In this document: one piece after another, positions 54,151 to 63,868 of the stretch
Layout of the letters: the number at the start of each line of letters is the position of its first letter
How positions within the stretch are numbered: position 1 is the first letter of the stretch
Source of the DNA: Bdellovibrionales bacterium
GTDB lineage: Bacteria > Bdellovibrionota > Bdellovibrionia > Bdellovibrionales > Bdellovibrionaceae
DNA length: 64,000 bases
Assembly (NCBI GenBank): GCA_018266295.1
Contig: JAFEAQ010000015.1
Coordinates: forward strand, 124,001 to 188,000
Direction: 5' to 3'
Translations under genes and position numbers: made by a program
Notes under the pieces: generated by a model
The model's input: only the letters and a program-made list of their open reading frames with translations
What the model was told of the DNA's origin: nothing
Databases searched by the model: none

Positions 54151-54726
54151 ATGAAGAAATCCTCCTCCCCACTTTTTGATTATCATGACTCTGGTGCTAC
54201 AAAACGTAAGTACGGAAGAACCACTCATGGGGGAGTTGATTCAAAAGGTCGCCGTAAAGAATACCGTCCACTTTCAGAAAAGAAATGGATCCATCTCACC
54301 CTAAAATCTTCTAAAGCAAAAGGCCCATGGAGCTTCCTCACTCCAAAGAATCAACAAATCATCCGCGAAATCCTTAAATCCAAATCAAAAAAATGGGGCG
54401 TACAGATCGCAGAAGTCGTCAACGTCGGGAATCACCTTCACATCAAGCTTAAATTCAAGTACCGCGAAGGCTTTCAAAACTTCCTAAGATCCGTAACAGC
54501 ACTCATCGCAAGAAAAATCACCAACGCCCGCCGTGGGCATGCTGCCGGTAAGTTCTGGCAAGGCCTCGCCTTCACCCGCGTGATCAAAACCCACATCGAA
54601 GAACTCCAGCTCCGTGGCTACTTCAAAGCCAACCGCCTTCAAGCTGCCAAAGGCCAGAAAGCGCGTGAGGAGTACTTACAGAAATTCAATGAATGGGTCT
54701 CTCGGATGCGGCCAGGGACTGCGTGA
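54151..54726 (+). CDS. HUH/Y1 transposase, RAYT-like
   Basis: A 191-residue single-strand transposase of the Y1 (IS200/RAYT) type. The metal-binding HUH pair is His 95 and His 97 in NHLHIKL, and the nucleophile is likely Tyr 157 in RGYFKANR, which corresponds to the YIxxNP signature of RAYTs. A basic Lys/Arg-rich N-terminus precedes it. No accessory gene, terminal repeats or second copy is seen. The upstream AT-rich tract and the 20-base gap to the convergent DUF455 gene fit an insertion. It may be a domesticated REP-linked enzyme rather than a mobile element. Confidence 0.8.
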   Translation: MKKSSSPLFDYHDSGATKRKYGRTTHGGVDSKGRRKEYRPLSEKKWIHLTLKSSKAKGPWSFLTPKNQQIIREILKSKSKKWGVQIAEVVNVGNHLHIKLKFKYREGFQNFLRSVTALIARKITNARRGHAAGKFWQGLAFTRVIKTHIEELQLRGYFKANRLQAAKGQKAREEYLQKFNEWVSRMRPGTA

Positions 54727-56324: not shown

Positions 56325-56332
56325 CCTTAACC

Positions 56333-56360
56333 AAAGGGTCTCAAAAGAGACCCTTTTTTT
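56333..56360 (+). terminator. Terminator after yebC
   Basis: AAAGGGTCTC (56333-56342) pairs with GAGACCCTTT (56347-56356) around AAAA and is followed by a T run to 56360. The minus form is also usable for the convergent GH71 gene ending at 56367. Confidence 0.92.
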
Positions 56361-56366
56361 ATCTCC

Positions 56367-58328
56367 TTACGGCTCAGAGAATGTATAACAAGTTCCTGCC
56401 GCTGAAGCGCTGCCACTTTGGTAGGTGTAGTCACTGGTTTCAATCGACGATAGAATCTCTGTCTGACTCTTGAAAGAGATCACGGCGGAATTGTTTCGAA
56501 TCAATTTAAAGCTCGGCACACCGACATCCATCGGAACACGGAAGACATTGATACCCGCCGGCATATCCATGCCAGTGGTTTTGGAACCGGTTGTGATTTC
56601 CACACGGCCCGGAGACTTTAAGAATGCTACAACTTCGATCTCGTCATAAGGAGTGCCGTACTCGATATGATGAGTCCCAGTTTGCTTCGTCTTGTTTGCT
56701 GGCTGCAAATTCGACTTATGACGACGATGGAAGTAGTACAGCATCTCATTTGTGATCGCAGGCTGCGCGCCCATTTTAAACCATGTCAGATAGAATGCAC
56801 TCAAGTCATAGTATGTTCTTTGCATCTCGCCTTTTTGACCGAGAGATGGAGAGAAGTGTGTGTGCTCACTGTAGTCATTCCATGTGACGAGCTGAACCCA
56901 ATCCGCGTTGCCGTTGATCGCACTCAACCATAAGTTTCTGAAAGAGCCGCTGTTATGACTTTCGTAGTAACTAAGATCTTTAGGACGAACATCATTCGGA
57001 GCTACTGGTGCCATGTAAATGCCGGCATATTTGTGAATCAAAGCACCTTGATTCACCATATTTGCAGCATTTTCCTCATCGCGCGGGCCCCAATCGCTGA
57101 AACCCGATGCCACAGAAGCGTAATTCTTTAAGAAACTCTCGGGCAGACTTAGCCCCAGAGGAATAAGCGCTACGTTGTAGCCTTTAGCTTTCAACTGACT
57201 GACTTTTGCACTCCACTGTGCGGGTGTCACACCTTCCGCATAGAATGGACTCATCACAAGACGACCATCATCCATTTTAAACGCCGATGGATGATTGTAA
57301 AAGCCCGCCACGGCAACATCGACTTGATCGAGGCTGATCGCGGTCATATCCGGCATCAGCATGATTCTAAATTTCGGATCAACCGCTTTGGCGGCGTCTA
57401 AAAGTGCTAAAGCAATATCCCAACCCTCGCCTTTTGTATCCATGATATTGAAACTGAATCCATCCAACCCCATGGCGATAGCACGGCGAATATCTTTCTG
57501 AAGATTTGTGCGCCAGTAATTATTTTGATCAGCAAGCGGCGACATGAATAGCGGACGAGCCCTGATGAAACCACCGCCTTCGAGGAACTTGGATCCTTCA
57601 CCGAAAGGATTTAAGTAGTTTACGGTATAGTAGTCATTCGCCGGTGGCTGGTTATCAATCGACAGCGGGAATGGATAGAAATAGTGAGCAAAGACTTTCT
57701 TTGGCTTCGCACGAAGCGCATCCGTTGCATACTCCTGAAACGGCAAGCACGAGTTCTGCGGCTTCATCCCTCCACTTGGTGGAGGGGTTGGGGTTGGTGT
57801 CGCCGTTGGCACCGGAGTCGGTGTTGGTGTCATAGTTGGCGTCGGTGTGGGAGCCGGGGTCGGTGTTGGCGTCGGAGCAGTGACAACGCCAGCAAAGCTG
57901 ACGGATTTCACCCGGGTATTATTATTTACATTTGATTCGGCGAAGCGACCAATATCATTGACCCAAGCTAGCACTTGGTGAGCTCCCGCAGTCGCTTTAA
58001 AGGAAGCGCTCCCCATAGGACCGCTATTCGCAGTTAAAGTCACACTGGCACCGACAGCGAGGGCTTTAGAATAAGTGTCTGACCAGCTGACAGTTTGACC
58101 ATCGACTTGAAACTGCACCCCAATCACGACACCTGCTGGCGTGGACTTGGTGCCCTGATTTTTCACGACCGCCTTGAGTGTTACGACATCCCCTGCTTTA
58201 GGACTTTTAGGACTCATCGAAATGGAAGTTACAACCACATCCGGAAGTCTTGCTGCCAGCGCCGGATGTGCGCCCAGCAGAGTTGTTGCTAAAAACAAAG
58301 ATGCTATCCCCAATGAATGAAGCTTCAT
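56367..58328 (-). CDS. Secreted CARDB-GH71 alpha-1,3-glucanase-like enzyme
   Basis: A 653-residue secreted protein. The signal peptide ends at ALAA (about residue 25). A CARDB module (28-146: VVVTSISMSPKSPKAGD, VKNQGTKSTPAG) is followed by a Thr/Pro-rich linker (about 151-186) and a glycoside-hydrolase family 71-like domain (about 208-530): KKVFAHYFYPFPLS, AIAMGLDGFSFNIMD, LMPDMT and VQLVTWNDYSEH. GH71 enzymes cut alpha-1,3-glucan (mutan) and are best known from fungi. A beta-rich C-terminal module follows (about 540-653). GAGGGGGAG precedes the ATG. It may degrade extracellular glucan of prey or of a biofilm matrix; the substrate is inferred. Confidence 0.82.
   Translation of the reverse strand: MKLHSLGIASLFLATTLLGAHPALAARLPDVVVTSISMSPKSPKAGDVVTLKAVVKNQGTKSTPAGVVIGVQFQVDGQTVSWSDTYSKALAVGASVTLTANSGPMGSASFKATAGAHQVLAWVNDIGRFAESNVNNNTRVKSVSFAGVVTAPTPTPTPAPTPTPTMTPTPTPVPTATPTPTPPPSGGMKPQNSCLPFQEYATDALRAKPKKVFAHYFYPFPLSIDNQPPANDYYTVNYLNPFGEGSKFLEGGGFIRARPLFMSPLADQNNYWRTNLQKDIRRAIAMGLDGFSFNIMDTKGEGWDIALALLDAAKAVDPKFRIMLMPDMTAISLDQVDVAVAGFYNHPSAFKMDDGRLVMSPFYAEGVTPAQWSAKVSQLKAKGYNVALIPLGLSLPESFLKNYASVASGFSDWGPRDEENAANMVNQGALIHKYAGIYMAPVAPNDVRPKDLSYYESHNSGSFRNLWLSAINGNADWVQLVTWNDYSEHTHFSPSLGQKGEMQRTYYDLSAFYLTWFKMGAQPAITNEMLYYFHRRHKSNLQPANKTKQTGTHHIEYGTPYDEIEVVAFLKSPGRVEITTGSKTTGMDMPAGINVFRVPMDVGVPSFKLIRNNSAVISFKSQTEILSSIETSDYTYQSGSASAAGTCYTFSEP
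57778..57876 (-). repeat. Thr-Pro linker repeat in the GH71 gene
   Basis: A tandem GGTGTC/GGTGTT-type hexamer run encodes alternating Thr-Pro, Ala-Pro and Val-Pro pairs between CARDB and GH71. Such runs are slippage-prone, so linker length may vary between strains. Confidence 0.8.
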
Positions 58329-58420
58329 TTCTCTCCCCCTCTTCTTGGAACGATAAACTTAGGCTATCTGTTGCAACCTGGTGCCCGTTGAAAAAAGAGA
58401 AGCGATCTCAGACTGGGACA

Positions 58421-59089
58421 TTAACGAACTAGGACCTGCGCTGTGAAGGCTCCATTGTCACTGGCATAGGAGCAAACGGACCGAAAATGAAATGTCGTTA
58501 CAGTTCCATCGAACATGAGTTTCCATGTTGGATAGGCCAAGCCCGTCGTTGTCACATCGGGATCACTTTTCGCCCAAGGAGAATTACCCCAATCACAATT
58601 TGAAAGATGAGACGTCCAGGTGGATCCATTAAGATAATAAATATTTCCCTGAGTCATTTCAGGAATATGAGTGCATTGCATGATTGTCGTCGTGCGCGTA
58701 AAGATAATTTTCGCCTTAGTATAAGAAATCTTAGCGCCGGTTATGGTAAAGTTATTCGAAGTTCCGGCACAGTTAGATTGCCCCACATTATTGCCCGCGA
58801 TGATATCTGAGGTGTTCAAAGCAGGACTTGATGACGTTACAAGATTGGTATTGAGGCGCGTCCACCCTCCCCCATCCGTGGTCATGTCACAGGTCGCATT
58901 CACCCGGTTGCCTGATATAAGCAGAGGATATACGCCGTCATACTTACAACCAAAATTATAATGAGCTAAGCAGGTGGCCCTTGGAATCTGACAAGCATTC
59001 CAAAAAGCAAAGGGAATCATCGCTGCAGATCCCGTCGAGTTTGGCAATAAAAGCAAAGCCATAAGAGACGTTCTAATAAATTTTCTCAT
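58421..59089 (-). CDS. Secreted fibrinogen-like domain protein
   Basis: A 222-residue exported protein. The signal peptide ends near STGSA (about residue 22). The core shows the fibrinogen-C-terminal opening: NFGCKYDGVYPLLISG, then CDMTTDGGGWTRL; the rest has several Cys that could pair (NCAGT, MQCTH, NCDWG, SVCSY). The animal-type FReD fold binds sugars or acetyl groups, so a lectin role is likely. It is about 60-70 residues shorter than a full FReD. It is on the same strand as the GH71 gene, 92 bases upstream of it. Confidence 0.68.
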   Translation of the reverse strand: MRKFIRTSLMALLLLPNSTGSAAMIPFAFWNACQIPRATCLAHYNFGCKYDGVYPLLISGNRVNATCDMTTDGGGWTRLNTNLVTSSSPALNTSDIIAGNNVGQSNCAGTSNNFTITGAKISYTKAKIIFTRTTTIMQCTHIPEMTQGNIYYLNGSTWTSHLSNCDWGNSPWAKSDPDVTTTGLAYPTWKLMFDGTVTTFHFRSVCSYASDNGAFTAQVLVR

Positions 59090-59255
59090 CTCTTATAAAT
59101 TTAGATGTGCCACATGTTGCCAACAAGTAACGGCGTAAAAAGAAGTAATAAATTGTAAAAATGGAGTCAAAGAGGCCAGAGATCTTATAAAAACGCTTTC
59201 GTGTTGCTCTTCGGCAGCGCCTCAGTAAGAGACTGTTCCGCACGCACAACACTTT

Positions 59256-59269
59256 AGATGTTTACATCT
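59256..59269. promoter_or_regulatory. Dyad in the divergent promoter region
   Basis: AGATGT-TT-ACATCT, a 6-base perfect dyad, lies 36 bases before the TIGR02147-like start and between two divergent genes. It is a candidate operator for autoregulation. Confidence 0.3.
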
Positions 59270-59304
59270 TGCTATCGGTAATTTACGACCATTAGTGTTT
59301 TTAA

Positions 59305-60087
59305 ATGGCTTCAATCTTTGAGTACGACGATATCGTAGGTTTTTTAAAAGCGGTTTACGGAGAAAAAAAGAAAAAAAACTATACTTTTTCTTTGAGATCC
59401 TACGGAAAAGACCTCGACATTAGTGCCTCACACCTATTGCGCGTTCTACATGGCAAAAAGCATCTCTCACTGGGAAAAGCGATGAGTATCGCAAAGAAAC
59501 TCAACCTCTCGCCAACGGAAACCAATTATCTGCTTTTGCTTGCTCAGAAAGACATTGCAAAAGATGACAAAATCAAGAGTGAGTTTGTCACCGCCCTTGC
59601 TAAGAAAAAACGTGAAAACATGCGGCTCCAGTTGGATGCCGAGTCCTTGGAAGAGTTTACTGACTGGCTTTTCTTCGCATTGCTCGCTTTAATCAGGACC
59701 ATCGGATTTAAAAATGATACTAATTGGATCACAAAACGGCTAAATATTTCCAGCAAACAACTCAGCGAAGCGATTGCAAAACTTCGCAAAAGAAAAATGA
59801 TCGAGATTTCTCCACAAGAAGAAATCTCGCTCCCTCATTCGATCAATCTCCACCTGCAAGGCGGCTACGCCAAACGCCTTATAACACAAACGGCGCGGCA
59901 ACAAGAACAGGACGAGAGCCACCTTTCTGCTCTGACTCTTGTCGTAAATCCAAAGGACTTACCACGGGCAAAGCAGCTTATCTCAGAGTTTATTAATAAT
60001 TTTAATGACGAAATTGACAGCCTTGACGGAAATGAAGTTTTTCAACTCAATCTTCAGTTTTACCAACTGACACAAAAAGAGCCTTAA
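59305..60087 (+). CDS. TIGR02147/DUF4423 family protein
   Basis: A 260-residue putative regulator. The N-terminal helix-turn-helix-like region (LRSYGKDLDISASHLLRVLHGKKHLSLGKAM) is at about 30-60, and the C-terminal DUF4423 segment about 100-255 carries SLEEFTDWLFFALLALIRTIGFKND and KQLISEFINNFNDEIDSL. It ends 4 bases into the convergent paralogue. No sensory domain is visible. TIGR02147 proteins are common in Fibrobacteres and Bdellovibrio-type genomes; their function is unknown, with transcription regulation the usual guess. Confidence 0.8.
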   Translation: MASIFEYDDIVGFLKAVYGEKKKKNYTFSLRSYGKDLDISASHLLRVLHGKKHLSLGKAMSIAKKLNLSPTETNYLLLLAQKDIAKDDKIKSEFVTALAKKKRENMRLQLDAESLEEFTDWLFFALLALIRTIGFKNDTNWITKRLNISSKQLSEAIAKLRKRKMIEISPQEEISLPHSINLHLQGGYAKRLITQTARQQEQDESHLSALTLVVNPKDLPRAKQLISEFINNFNDEIDSLDGNEVFQLNLQFYQLTQKEP

Positions 60088-60920
60088 GGCTTCGTCAGTT
60101 TAAAAAATTGCATATTGAGCTGAAAAACGTCTGCACTGCCTTCTATATCCATCTCTGCATTGAATTTATCGATAAAATCGCGAATCAAAGTTTTAGCTTT
60201 TTTAACTTTTTCTGAGTCCATCGAAAGAGTGACATTCATAAATTCCCGCATATCAATGGGCTGAGAATCAAGCGCTTCTTTTGCAAGAGCTAACTGCTGG
60301 CGGTGATTGTCTTTAATCGCCGCAGAGACGATGTCTCCACTCGTTGTGAGGTCCGGTCCTGCTCCTGTGCGGATTTTACCATCTAGGTCCTTCTTAAGAA
60401 ACCCCAATTCCAATAAGCGCTTTAAAGCGATTTCTGCTTTTATAGCGGAAACTCCAAGTCGTCGCGAAACCCACTTAGCATCTCCCTCGAATCCCTTTGT
60501 TTTCGCAAGCACAATAATAGCGGCATGATGCCAATCAGAAATCATTTTAAAAACTTCATTTTTGACGACACTCTTGCCAAGGTGGCGTTTTCTAAGCGAA
60601 AGCTCCCTCAGCATCTCTTTACGGTGACTTTCGCTCTTGGCATTTTCCATTTGCACCAGTAGGCAGAAATATTCTGTCGCACTTGGTGACATCTTCAGTC
60701 TTGAAGCAACCTGTCTTGCTAAGCTCGGTGACATTCTATTGCTGCCTTTAAGCAAACGCGACATGTGCGAGGGACTGACTCCTAAATGGCGTGAAAACGA
60801 TCTCAGGGAAAAAGAAGAGTTTTTATCAGAGATCTTCTTCAATGTCTGACTGAGAAATTCTTCTGAACACTCGTACTCGTAAACAGAGCCCACATAACTC
60901 CTTAACGACACGCGCGGCAA
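60084..60920 (-). CDS. TIGR02147/DUF4423 family protein
   Basis: A 278-residue protein clearly related to its convergent neighbour: SFSLRSFSRHLGVSPSHMSRLLKGSNRMSPSLAR is the helix-turn-helix-like region and AKTLIRDFIDKFNAEMDIEG and FQLNMQFFKLT match the neighbour's end. It starts inside the last codons of the secreted-protein gene upstream (19-base overlap), so the two are probably translated together. The 3' ends overlap by 4 bases. Confidence 0.8.
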   Translation of the reverse strand: MPRVSLRSYVGSVYEYECSEEFLSQTLKKISDKNSSFSLRSFSRHLGVSPSHMSRLLKGSNRMSPSLARQVASRLKMSPSATEYFCLLVQMENAKSESHRKEMLRELSLRKRHLGKSVVKNEVFKMISDWHHAAIIVLAKTKGFEGDAKWVSRRLGVSAIKAEIALKRLLELGFLKKDLDGKIRTGAGPDLTTSGDIVSAAIKDNHRQQLALAKEALDSQPIDMREFMNVTLSMDSEKVKKAKTLIRDFIDKFNAEMDIEGSADVFQLNMQFFKLTKP

Positions 60921-62071
60921 CTTGGCGACTCACGAAGTTGGACTTCGTCTTTAACGGGATCGTAAGTCAGCTGTTGACGCTTCCATTGCACTGCCTGTTC
61001 TTTATAAACTCCAACAAATTCTATTTCCGCAAATCTATTCTCATCGCTAAAACCATCCACACTCACATTTTTCATAAAGTCTTTATCGTCCGTGATAGAA
61101 AAAAAGCTCGCTTGAGTGCTCGTCAGAACTCCATGGAGGCTGCCAAAATCGATCTTGAGGGGCTGCGCACGCACACTAAAATCAACCGGCGCTCCGTCGT
61201 TATTAAAATGTATCGGCATCGGATCACAACACCGCTGATCGACAAGTTCTAAAGCCTGGCCATGCCAAACATACTGAAGATGACTGAAGAAATCCGCAAA
61301 GGAGGCTCGTGCGAAAGCAAACGAGACAAAGTCAGGCTTCGCTTCATTAAAACGCACGTCTAATTGACGAAGGCTGCCGTCATCGTTCTCTGTCAAAATA
61401 TAGATCGGAAATCCGTACTGCGTATCCATCACGGCAAATTGCAGCTTCAGCAGAAGATTATAGTAATCATTCAACTTGATCGTGGTGATTTGATCGGAAC
61501 TGATAAAGGCATTGTAGTAACGGACGTATTTCGAAGTACGATGTGCGGGTTTCTGACTGGCAAGCTCACGATAAATGAGCTCATGCAGAATTAGGCCCGC
61601 TTTACCGTCACTATTAAGGCTTCCCCAAAGATCTTTTTGGATAGCGTACCGCGCATCCCCAGGCAAATCAGGATCTTGCTGAATCGCAATTTGAACGATT
61701 TTACACCCAGGAGTTATTTTCGCAGGGCCTGAATCTGCATTCGAAATGATTTCCAAATTTGTGAAATCCGTTTCACTCATAAATGTTTTCAACCAATGAT
61801 CGTACAAGGTGGCTCTGTTAGGATTGATTTTTTTAAGTCTTTCTAAAACGAGCTGGACCTTTTCCTCAGGTGCAAGCTCTGGGGCCCCCATTTGAATATT
61901 CAAATTGCGGGTTGTGCGGCTTTCCCAGTGATCTAACAACTCAACCGTTCTCAAGACACCTTCGCCACAGACGATGACGTTTCCGCCATTGCCCACTATG
62001 AATCCCGCAAAGGCCTTAGAGACACCACCCAGCAAAAGGACCAAAAGCAAAATAAGCATTTCGATTTTCAT
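60902..62071 (-). CDS. Secreted hypothetical protein co-transcribed with a regulator
   Basis: A 389-residue exported protein. The signal peptide ends at AFAG (about residue 22) and the mature part opens FIVGNGGNVIVCGEG with a Cys. Residues about 150-300 look helical and charged, and the end RESPSCRACR carries two Cys. ATG 62071 is preferred; the upstream start at 62176 has no sensible signal. The end overlaps the regulator start by 19 bases, which suggests that the regulator controls this gene or is controlled with it. Family unknown. Confidence 0.68.
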   Translation of the reverse strand: MKIEMLILLLVLLLGGVSKAFAGFIVGNGGNVIVCGEGVLRTVELLDHWESRTTRNLNIQMGAPELAPEEKVQLVLERLKKINPNRATLYDHWLKTFMSETDFTNLEIISNADSGPAKITPGCKIVQIAIQQDPDLPGDARYAIQKDLWGSLNSDGKAGLILHELIYRELASQKPAHRTSKYVRYYNAFISSDQITTIKLNDYYNLLLKLQFAVMDTQYGFPIYILTENDDGSLRQLDVRFNEAKPDFVSFAFARASFADFFSHLQYVWHGQALELVDQRCCDPMPIHFNNDGAPVDFSVRAQPLKIDFGSLHGVLTSTQASFFSITDDKDFMKNVSVDGFSDENRFAEIEFVGVYKEQAVQWKRQQLTYDPVKDEVQLRESPSCRACR

Positions 62072-62198
62072 GGGATCTTTATATACACGCAAAACAGATG
62101 CTGCCAAATTTTTAGGAATAAAAGAGAGAATGGCTGGTGCCCCTCTGTTGCCTGCGGGTATAGCCTGTTTTTGCAATGCTCAAAGCTGAATTTAAAAA

Positions 62199-62792
62199 CT
62201 AATCCTGACCGGCGACGGGGATCTCTTGACCGTTGCTATTTGCTAGATCCTTGCGCTCTTTGAGCTCTGTCATGACTTCGCTTGCTGATTTTTGCGGGAA
62301 CTTACAGAGAACGTCCACCTGTGCTGACACTTTCCAGTCTAGGCGAATCGTGCCCAAACCCAGATCTTGCTTTTGCTCGGGAGTAAATGCATCGGCCCCC
62401 GTCAATGCCACACACTTTGCACCATCAAGGCCACCATTTGATGTCGAGCTTGAACCAAAAGAATAAATACCGACGCTATAGTAAAACTCCGTACGCTGAG
62501 AAAAGAATCCACCGCCGAATTTGCTGAGATCGCCTTGTGGGTCGGTAGAAATCACACCCTGGTTATTAGCGACGAAATTTAAACCGCCAAAGCTATAGCG
62601 ACGAGCACTGCCTGCGCCAGGCATGCCCCCGCCGGTACCCATAGTCAGCTTTTTACCGCTGGCCACACCAAACATAATCACGTTTGGAATAGGCTTATCG
62701 TCTTTATCAACAACCTTGATGCGAACATTTGCAAATGCAGAGAAAGAAACCGTCATGGCTAAGATGAATGGCAAGGCCGAAAATGCTTTCAT
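62199..62792 (-). CDS. Secreted Gly-rich hypothetical protein
   Basis: A 197-residue exported protein with a signal peptide ending at AFAN (about residue 22), then VRIKVVDKDDKPIPNVIMFG, a beta-sandwich-type start. A Gly/Ser-rich region (GTGGGMPGAGSARR) and a YSVGIYSFGSSS stretch follow. Two Cys occur late (KCVAL, LCKFP). AGGAG lies 6 bases before the ATG. It ends 128 bases before the secreted-protein gene on the same strand. Function unknown. Confidence 0.68.
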   Translation of the reverse strand: MKAFSALPFILAMTVSFSAFANVRIKVVDKDDKPIPNVIMFGVASGKKLTMGTGGGMPGAGSARRYSFGGLNFVANNQGVISTDPQGDLSKFGGGFFSQRTEFYYSVGIYSFGSSSTSNGGLDGAKCVALTGADAFTPEQKQDLGLGTIRLDWKVSAQVDVLCKFPQKSASEVMTELKERKDLANSNGQEIPVAGQD

Positions 62793-62950
62793 TGAAAACT
62801 CCTGTTTTTACGTCACAGGCTGTGAGTTCAAAACCCAAGCCAGGCTCAGATGTAAGATAACTCTATCGAGCCCCTCGCACTGTCAATGTACTCAGCATCT
62901 CTAAGCCAAATGTCACCGCTCGCTCCTCCACGGGCTCTCCTGGGTAAAAT

Positions 62951-62979
62951 AAAAAAACCCGGGTTTAACCCCGGGTTTT
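62951..62979 (-). terminator. Terminator of the protease gene
   Basis: AAAACCCGGG (62954-62963) pairs with CCCGGGTTTT (62970-62979). On the minus strand the stem runs into TTTTTTTATTTTA. It lies 26 bases beyond the protease stop at 63005. Confidence 0.92.
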
Positions 62980-63004
62980 AAAGGTGGTTTAGGACAGGGA
63001 ACTA

Positions 63005-63868
63005 TTAGTGTTTTTTCAAAGCTTCAGAGATGTAAGAGATATTCGTTACATCTTCACCGCGGCAGCCATCCGCTGGGCAGCGATTGCTGACAGAGCATTT
63101 GTTAACACGGTCATAAACGAAATCGCTCTCGCCACGAACCAAGATACCAACAACTTGCAATGTGTTTTGATCAAAGACCGCAGAACCGGAATTACCGCCG
63201 TAAGTGTCCAGATTCGCCGTAAAAAACTCAGGTTTTGTACTACGAACAACGCCGTTGTCTGTGATTTTTGTCGGGATGCCGGATGGATGACCGATGGTTA
63301 CAACCGTGTCACCCACTGCCACCGGGTCTTTTGCCAAAGTCAAAATGCGGTGGCCGCGAACCGGGCGGTCCAACTTCACAAGAGCGTAATCTTGGGCACC
63401 AGTTTGTTCTCTTTCAAGAACCGCCTGACAACGATAGATTTCAGAGCTGCTCACGTTGTTTGGAGCTTGGCCTTGTTCAGACATTCTATAAGTAAATACA
63501 AAACTGCTTTGTGGGCAGCGAGCCGTATCAATACAGTGACCGGCAGTTGCAATCATATCATCGCCGACAAGGAAAGCCGAACAGAAGGCCCCCGAAGGTT
63601 CAGAGGCAAAACGCTCTGTACTGCAGAGACCGACCATCTTTTGAAAAGATTCCGCTTTAATGTCTGTCGTCCCGTCGCTTTTTGGTGTAAGGCTCGAATT
63701 ACGAACGACAGCCGCCGTGCTGTCAGCCACTTCGCGCACATCGGAACGACGAACCTGGAAGAACTCCTGGCGGTTGTCATCACCATAAATAACTTTATTT
63801 TGAATTTTAGCGATTGCGATTGGAGACAGGAAATAACAAAGGGCGACTACGAGAATTGCTTTGACCAC
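63005..63868 (-). CDS. Secreted trypsin-like serine protease
   Basis: A 287-residue S1-family protease. The signal peptide ends near AIAK (about residue 20). The catalytic triad is intact: His in TAGHC, Asp in QDYALVKL and Ser in GGNSGSAVF. Extra Cys residues (VGLCSTE, FCSAF, HCIDTARCP, YRCQ) suggest disulfides. The GTG at 63868 is preferred over the TTG before it because AGGAGG is 5 bases upstream. It resembles V8/trypsin-type secreted proteases of predatory bacteria. It is transcribed alone and ends in a strong terminator. Confidence 0.88.
   Translation of the reverse strand: MVKAILVVALCYFLSPIAIAKIQNKVIYGDDNRQEFFQVRRSDVREVADSTAAVVRNSSLTPKSDGTTDIKAESFQKMVGLCSTERFASEPSGAFCSAFLVGDDMIATAGHCIDTARCPQSSFVFTYRMSEQGQAPNNVSSSEIYRCQAVLEREQTGAQDYALVKLDRPVRGHRILTLAKDPVAVGDTVVTIGHPSGIPTKITDNGVVRSTKPEFFTANLDTYGGNSGSAVFDQNTLQVVGILVRGESDFVYDRVNKCSVSNRCPADGCRGEDVTNISYISEALKKH

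Follow-up and report, generated by a model that had tools for sequence, protein, structure and literature searches.

This locus raises two questions: whether a gene in a member of the Bdellovibrionales really encodes a glycoside hydrolase of family GH71, and what such an enzyme would cut. By the window we mean the whole stretch of DNA that was analysed, 64,000 nucleotides long. A sequence-only reading had seen in it a secreted protein in which a signal peptide, a CARDB module, a Thr-Pro linker and a GH71-type core are joined. That domain reading is borne out, with the signal peptide judged from sequence and hydropathy. The open reading frame encodes a genuine GH71 enzyme, one whose host and N-terminal domain are both uncommon. 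Its parts are as follows.

56367..58328, minus strand: CARDB-linker-GH71 gene, ATG start, 653 amino acids plus stop codon
58251..58328, minus strand: signal-peptide-like start, residues 1-26, with a K/H n-region, a hydrophobic core and ALA-A, from sequence and hydropathy
57912..58244, minus strand: CARDB domain, residues 29-139, PF07705, E 1.1e-9, 38.8 bits against a cut-off of 22.7
57774..57881, minus strand: Pro/Thr-rich linker, approximately residues 150-185, read from the sequence, pLDDT mostly below 60
56400..57698, minus strand: GH71 catalytic unit, residues 211-643, a (beta/alpha)8 barrel with a C-terminal beta-sandwich, from PF03659 and structural alignment
56865..56876, minus strand: catalytic dyad D485-x-x-E488 in the motif TWNDYSE, aligned with DYGE of Agn1p

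The N-terminus begins with MKLH and continues through a hydrophobic core to ALA-A, which by eye and by hydropathy resembles a Sec signal peptide. Residues 29-139 are the sole CARDB match in a search of the whole genome, and the protein is the sole GH71 match in a profile search of that genome. The GH71 profile comparison, which had been proposed as a check on the sequence-only reading, gave a strong match: PF03659 (Glyco_hydro_71) aligns with residues 269-617 at E 8.9e-41 and 140.4 bits, against a Pfam cut-off of 34. The catalytic unit extends N-terminal of this match, since solved GH71 enzymes align structurally with the protein from residue 203 or 211 to 643, and it is flanked by Cys194 and Cys647.

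A phmmer search of the PDB returned Agn1p of Schizosaccharomyces pombe (8yfh, E 3.8e-25), the Agn1p mutant chain 9m6l (2e-24), and AnGH71C of Aspergillus nidulans (9fnf, 1.2e-5). Internalin K was matched at E 1.3e-5 over the CARDB and linker region, and GH99 came next at E 0.011. An AlphaFold2 model built from 39 sequences had a mean pLDDT of 80 and a pTM of 0.75; pLDDT was about 90-98 across most of the catalytic unit and low in the signal peptide, CARDB domain and linker, with the CARDB domain poorly modelled at below about 60. The top structural matches of this model were all GH71 enzymes (Z 35-37), with both the barrel and the beta-sandwich aligned: Agn1p (8yfh and 9m6l) at Z 37 and an rmsd of 2.4-2.5 over 375 residues, 211-643, and AnGH71C at Z 35.5 over 373 residues. 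The predicted C-terminal beta-sandwich aligns with 8yfh, 9m6l and 9fnf as far as residue 643. Agn1p has the barrel, the beta-sandwich and the aligned DxxE dyad in common with the window protein, but it is fungal, only 26% identical, and matched over the catalytic unit alone. AnGH71C (MutA; PDB 9fnf-9fnh) likewise shares the two-domain GH71 fold, but is fungal and 18% identical.

The residues expected to carry out catalysis are conserved. D485 and E488 are kept in 71 of 71 aligned proteins, and W413 in 70 of the 71. The two Agn1p chains differ at the dyad, which has Asp in 8yfh and Asn in 9m6l (titled D237N), and that Asp aligns with D485. Excerpts of PMC12394665 report that the dyad is essential in the A. 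nidulans GH71 enzymes, as judged by mutation, with equivalent changes in AnGH71C lowering activity 6,142-fold and 15,427-fold. Sequence comparison and modelling together show the domains, the predicted fold, the putative catalytic dyad and the membership of this protein in the bacterial GH71 group.

How unusual is such an enzyme in a bacterium? The earlier statement that GH71 is mostly known in fungi is outdated, and the premise of an enzyme outside its usual kingdom fails with it, because about half of the family is bacterial and 225 bacterial relatives turned up when bacterial and archaeal genomes were scanned. GH71 is described as principally bacterial and fungal, with the bacterial enzymes making up roughly half of the known diversity and not yet investigated (PMC12394665, in excerpt), and as a family that was formerly thought unique to fungi but has since proved common in Actinobacteria (PMC13421300, in excerpt). 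The best 80 of the 225 relatives are 36-44% identical to the window protein and come from Pseudomonadota, Myxococcota, Actinomycetota, Planctomycetota and others. Those of Methylocapsa, metagenome-assembled Gammaproteobacteria, Myxococcus, Corallococcus and Nannocystis (L007-L021) share the whole catalytic unit at 40-44% identity and the same dyad. Since bacteria were already known to carry GH71 commonly, it is the host that is unusual here, and the enzyme is not of a new kind; the window protein is an addition to a known, widespread bacterial family, and it leaves the known occurrence of GH71 unchanged. Within the collection of papers that we searched, none combined GH71 with Bdellovibrio or with myxobacteria.

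The less usual aspects of the window protein are its host order and its CARDB fusion. In a domain scan of 71 proteins, GH71 was found in 71, CBM96 in 12, PA14 in one and CARDB in one, the window protein; the 70 other GH71-type proteins scanned differ in having no CARDB. Within the order, PF03659 is matched at E 0.001 or better in 4 of 140 genomes and above the cut-off in 2 of 140, these being the window's own genome and G028. In the phylum sample, 4 of 368 genomes match at E 0.001 and 2 of 368 pass the cut-off. The G028 protein is more distant (25% identity by BLAST), and the WNDYSE motif is present in it. Three further loci from G018 and G032 (L003-L005) encode lipoprotein-like proteins with partial matches below the GH71 cut-off, in which a GH99/GH71-like barrel motif, SWNDWxEE, can be seen by eye. 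Matches to the full-length protein in its own genome and in relatives were set aside, as they fell mostly within the Thr/Pro linker.

We asked where the gene came from. In both phylogenetic trees the window protein falls with the bacterial rows and apart from the fungal row, as a lone branch; the fork beside it is open in one tree and has 89/78 support in the other. Because the outgroup is a single, partial fungal sequence on a long branch, the root and the position of the window protein as sister to all other bacteria are unsure. One tree joins the distant G028 protein to the fungal sequence, but each of them sits on a long branch, and the program itself cautions against relying on this join. 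A fungal source is not supported, as the protein is 36-44% identical to the best 80 bacterial loci versus 26% to Agn1p, and groups with bacteria in the trees.

Gene order gives a second view. Among relatives' genomes, 26 had a yebC match (the window's own genome counted), and six yebC regions were compared. DUF455 and yebC are adjacent in 6 of 6, and a homologue of the trypsin-like gene at 63005 in the window lies beyond yebC in 4 of 6, the matches being approximately 0.1 to 1.9 kb apart; the two regions without it are uninformative on the gap. In the window the corresponding gap is 6.7 kb (56325-63004) and holds six genes: the GH71 gene, a fibrinogen-like gene, a pair of TIGR02147 regulators and two more. 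A tblastn search at 1e-5 matched none of the six in any of the six relatives' regions. The absence of the GH71 gene beside conserved neighbours in six relatives, together with its rarity in the order, favours a lineage-specific gain, and the comparison suggests an apparent insertion of about 6.7 kb. The donor would then have been another bacterium and not a fungus. Loss from each of the six relatives, instead of gain, is a formal but less likely alternative.

The gene closest to the GH71 gene on its upstream side is the following.

58421..59089, minus strand: small protein that looks exported and carries a fibrinogen-like YCDxxxxGGGW domain, NF040941, E 1.9e-8, above the cut-off

It lies 92 bp upstream of the GH71 gene in the same direction, and the two may be on a shared transcript. 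Promoter-like matches were close to chance (6 found versus 4.5 expected), Rfam and tRNA searches gave no matches, and we saw no transporter or sugar-use operon adjoining the GH71 gene. At 59305-60920 of the window are the two regulators of the TIGR02147 family (DUF4423), with convergent ORF ends that overlap by 4 bases; one of these neighbours weakly matches (29%) a protein from a Bdellovibrio plasmid. Since TIGR02147 regulators are expanded in Bdellovibrio, this is a weak hint of Bdellovibrio-like kinship. An IS200-like (Y1) transposase gene, just above the Pfam cut-off, is located near the locus at 54151-54726.

With respect to the reaction, we consider it quite probable that this is a secreted bacterial GH71 enzyme, most likely cutting alpha-1,3-glucosidic bonds in extracellular glucan. 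The protein would be exported via the Sec route; members of GH71 are usually, though not always, extracellular. By analogy with AnGH71C, D485 would serve as the general base that activates water and E488 as the general acid, and the bond would be broken with inversion to release nigero-oligosaccharides. CARDB, which we take from the meaning of its name to be an adhesion or spacer module, could together with the Thr/Pro linker hold the barrel off the cell or close to its substrate, for which the alpha-glucan of a biofilm matrix or of fungal debris are the likely targets. The excerpts of PMC13421300 describe all characterised GH71 enzymes as mutanases (EC 3.2.1.59), while hydrolysis of alpha-1,3-glucan with inversion is known only for fungal members (PMC12394665 and PMC13421300, in excerpt), and two A. 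nidulans GH71 enzymes acted only minimally on insoluble glucan (PMC12394665, in excerpt). The excerpted text of PMC13421300 states that no GH71 enzyme from a bacterium had been characterised as of July 2026, so the assumed substrate is that of fungal enzymes 18-26% identical to the window protein. For the same reason, this member of the family, which looks secreted, branches deeply and keeps its dyad intact, would be a reasonable choice for assay.

Action of this GH71-fold enzyme on another alpha-glycan instead, such as a mixed-linkage alpha-glucan of capsule or exopolysaccharide or an alpha-glycan of bacterial prey, is in our view unlikely. It would be consistent with the uncharacterised state of the bacterial enzymes (PMC13421300, in excerpt) and with the place of the window protein as a deep, lone branch of the bacterial group, on account of which its specificity may have drifted. 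It would also fit the genome, where the families searched revealed no toolkit for alpha-1,3-glucan or fungal walls: profile searches found no GH18, GH16 or GH31 match and two GH13 matches. The lack of GH31 would count against the alpha-1,3-glucan reading, as none was found that could finish the nigero-oligosaccharides. Against another alpha-glycan, the protein retains an intact DxxE dyad as well as the two domains of GH71, and every GH71 enzyme assayed is an alpha-1,3-glucanase, as the excerpts of PMC13421300 have it. We keep to alpha-1,3-glucan as the most likely substrate.

What the host would gain from cutting such a glucan is a separate question. The sequence-only reading had proposed prey walls or biofilm as the target. 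Biofilm matrix is possible, but prey-wall attack by this enzyme is speculation and found no support, as no feature of the locus suggests predation and the profile searches of the genome gave no GH18, GH16 or GH31 hit. That gene content, with two GH13 matches, also argues mildly against a dedicated fungal-wall diet. A broader proposal is that a Bdellovibrio-like bacterium acquired a deep-branching bacterial GH71 with CARDB, and with it opens an alpha-glucan biofilm or fungal matrix to reach prey or food. We hold this to be quite unlikely; if it were true, the matrix-opening role would be new for Bdellovibrio-like bacteria and would open the uncharacterised bacterial half of GH71 to assay. Distinctly improbable, although compatible with the main reading of the reaction, is a predation factor that opens prey walls or biofilm for a Bdellovibrio-like predator. 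Relatives of the window protein do occur in myxobacteria, which are predators, and the genome is probably Bdellovibrio-like, for which the TIGR02147 match is a weak hint. Predation in this group evidently does not need GH71, given that it passes the cut-off in only 2 of the 140 genomes examined in the order, and no predation gene was recognised beside the GH71 gene.

Assignment of the window protein to the GH99-type endo-alpha-mannosidases or mannanases is scarcely credible: these enzymes have a related barrel (Z 25.5 between the AlphaFold2 model and BxGH99) and weak GH99 profile matches occur in 3 of the 71 aligned members, but the window protein itself has no GH99 profile match at E 0.01, its motif is DYSE rather than the EWHE (ExxE) of GH99 (PMC13421300, in excerpt), its model carries a C-terminal beta-sandwich that is absent from known GH99 enzymes, and its GH71 Z-score is about 10 above its GH99 Z-score, so we rejected membership of GH99 on the strength of the motif, the additional domain and the Z-score.

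GH71-type genes were also seen on contigs called viral in IMG/VR. On one of these (L091, 5001-6389) the gene lies within a block of phage tail genes, between a tail-fibre-like gene and a tail assembly chaperone that is followed by a tape measure gene. No relative of its product was found among 50,697 annotated phage records, which also gave no match for the L090 protein. The L091 protein could be a virion-borne glucan depolymerase. The other five genes (L087-L090 and L092) form one tree group beside genes of Gammaproteobacteria; a terminase gene is present on L088, an integrase on L089, and genes that weakly resemble portal and terminase genes on L090.
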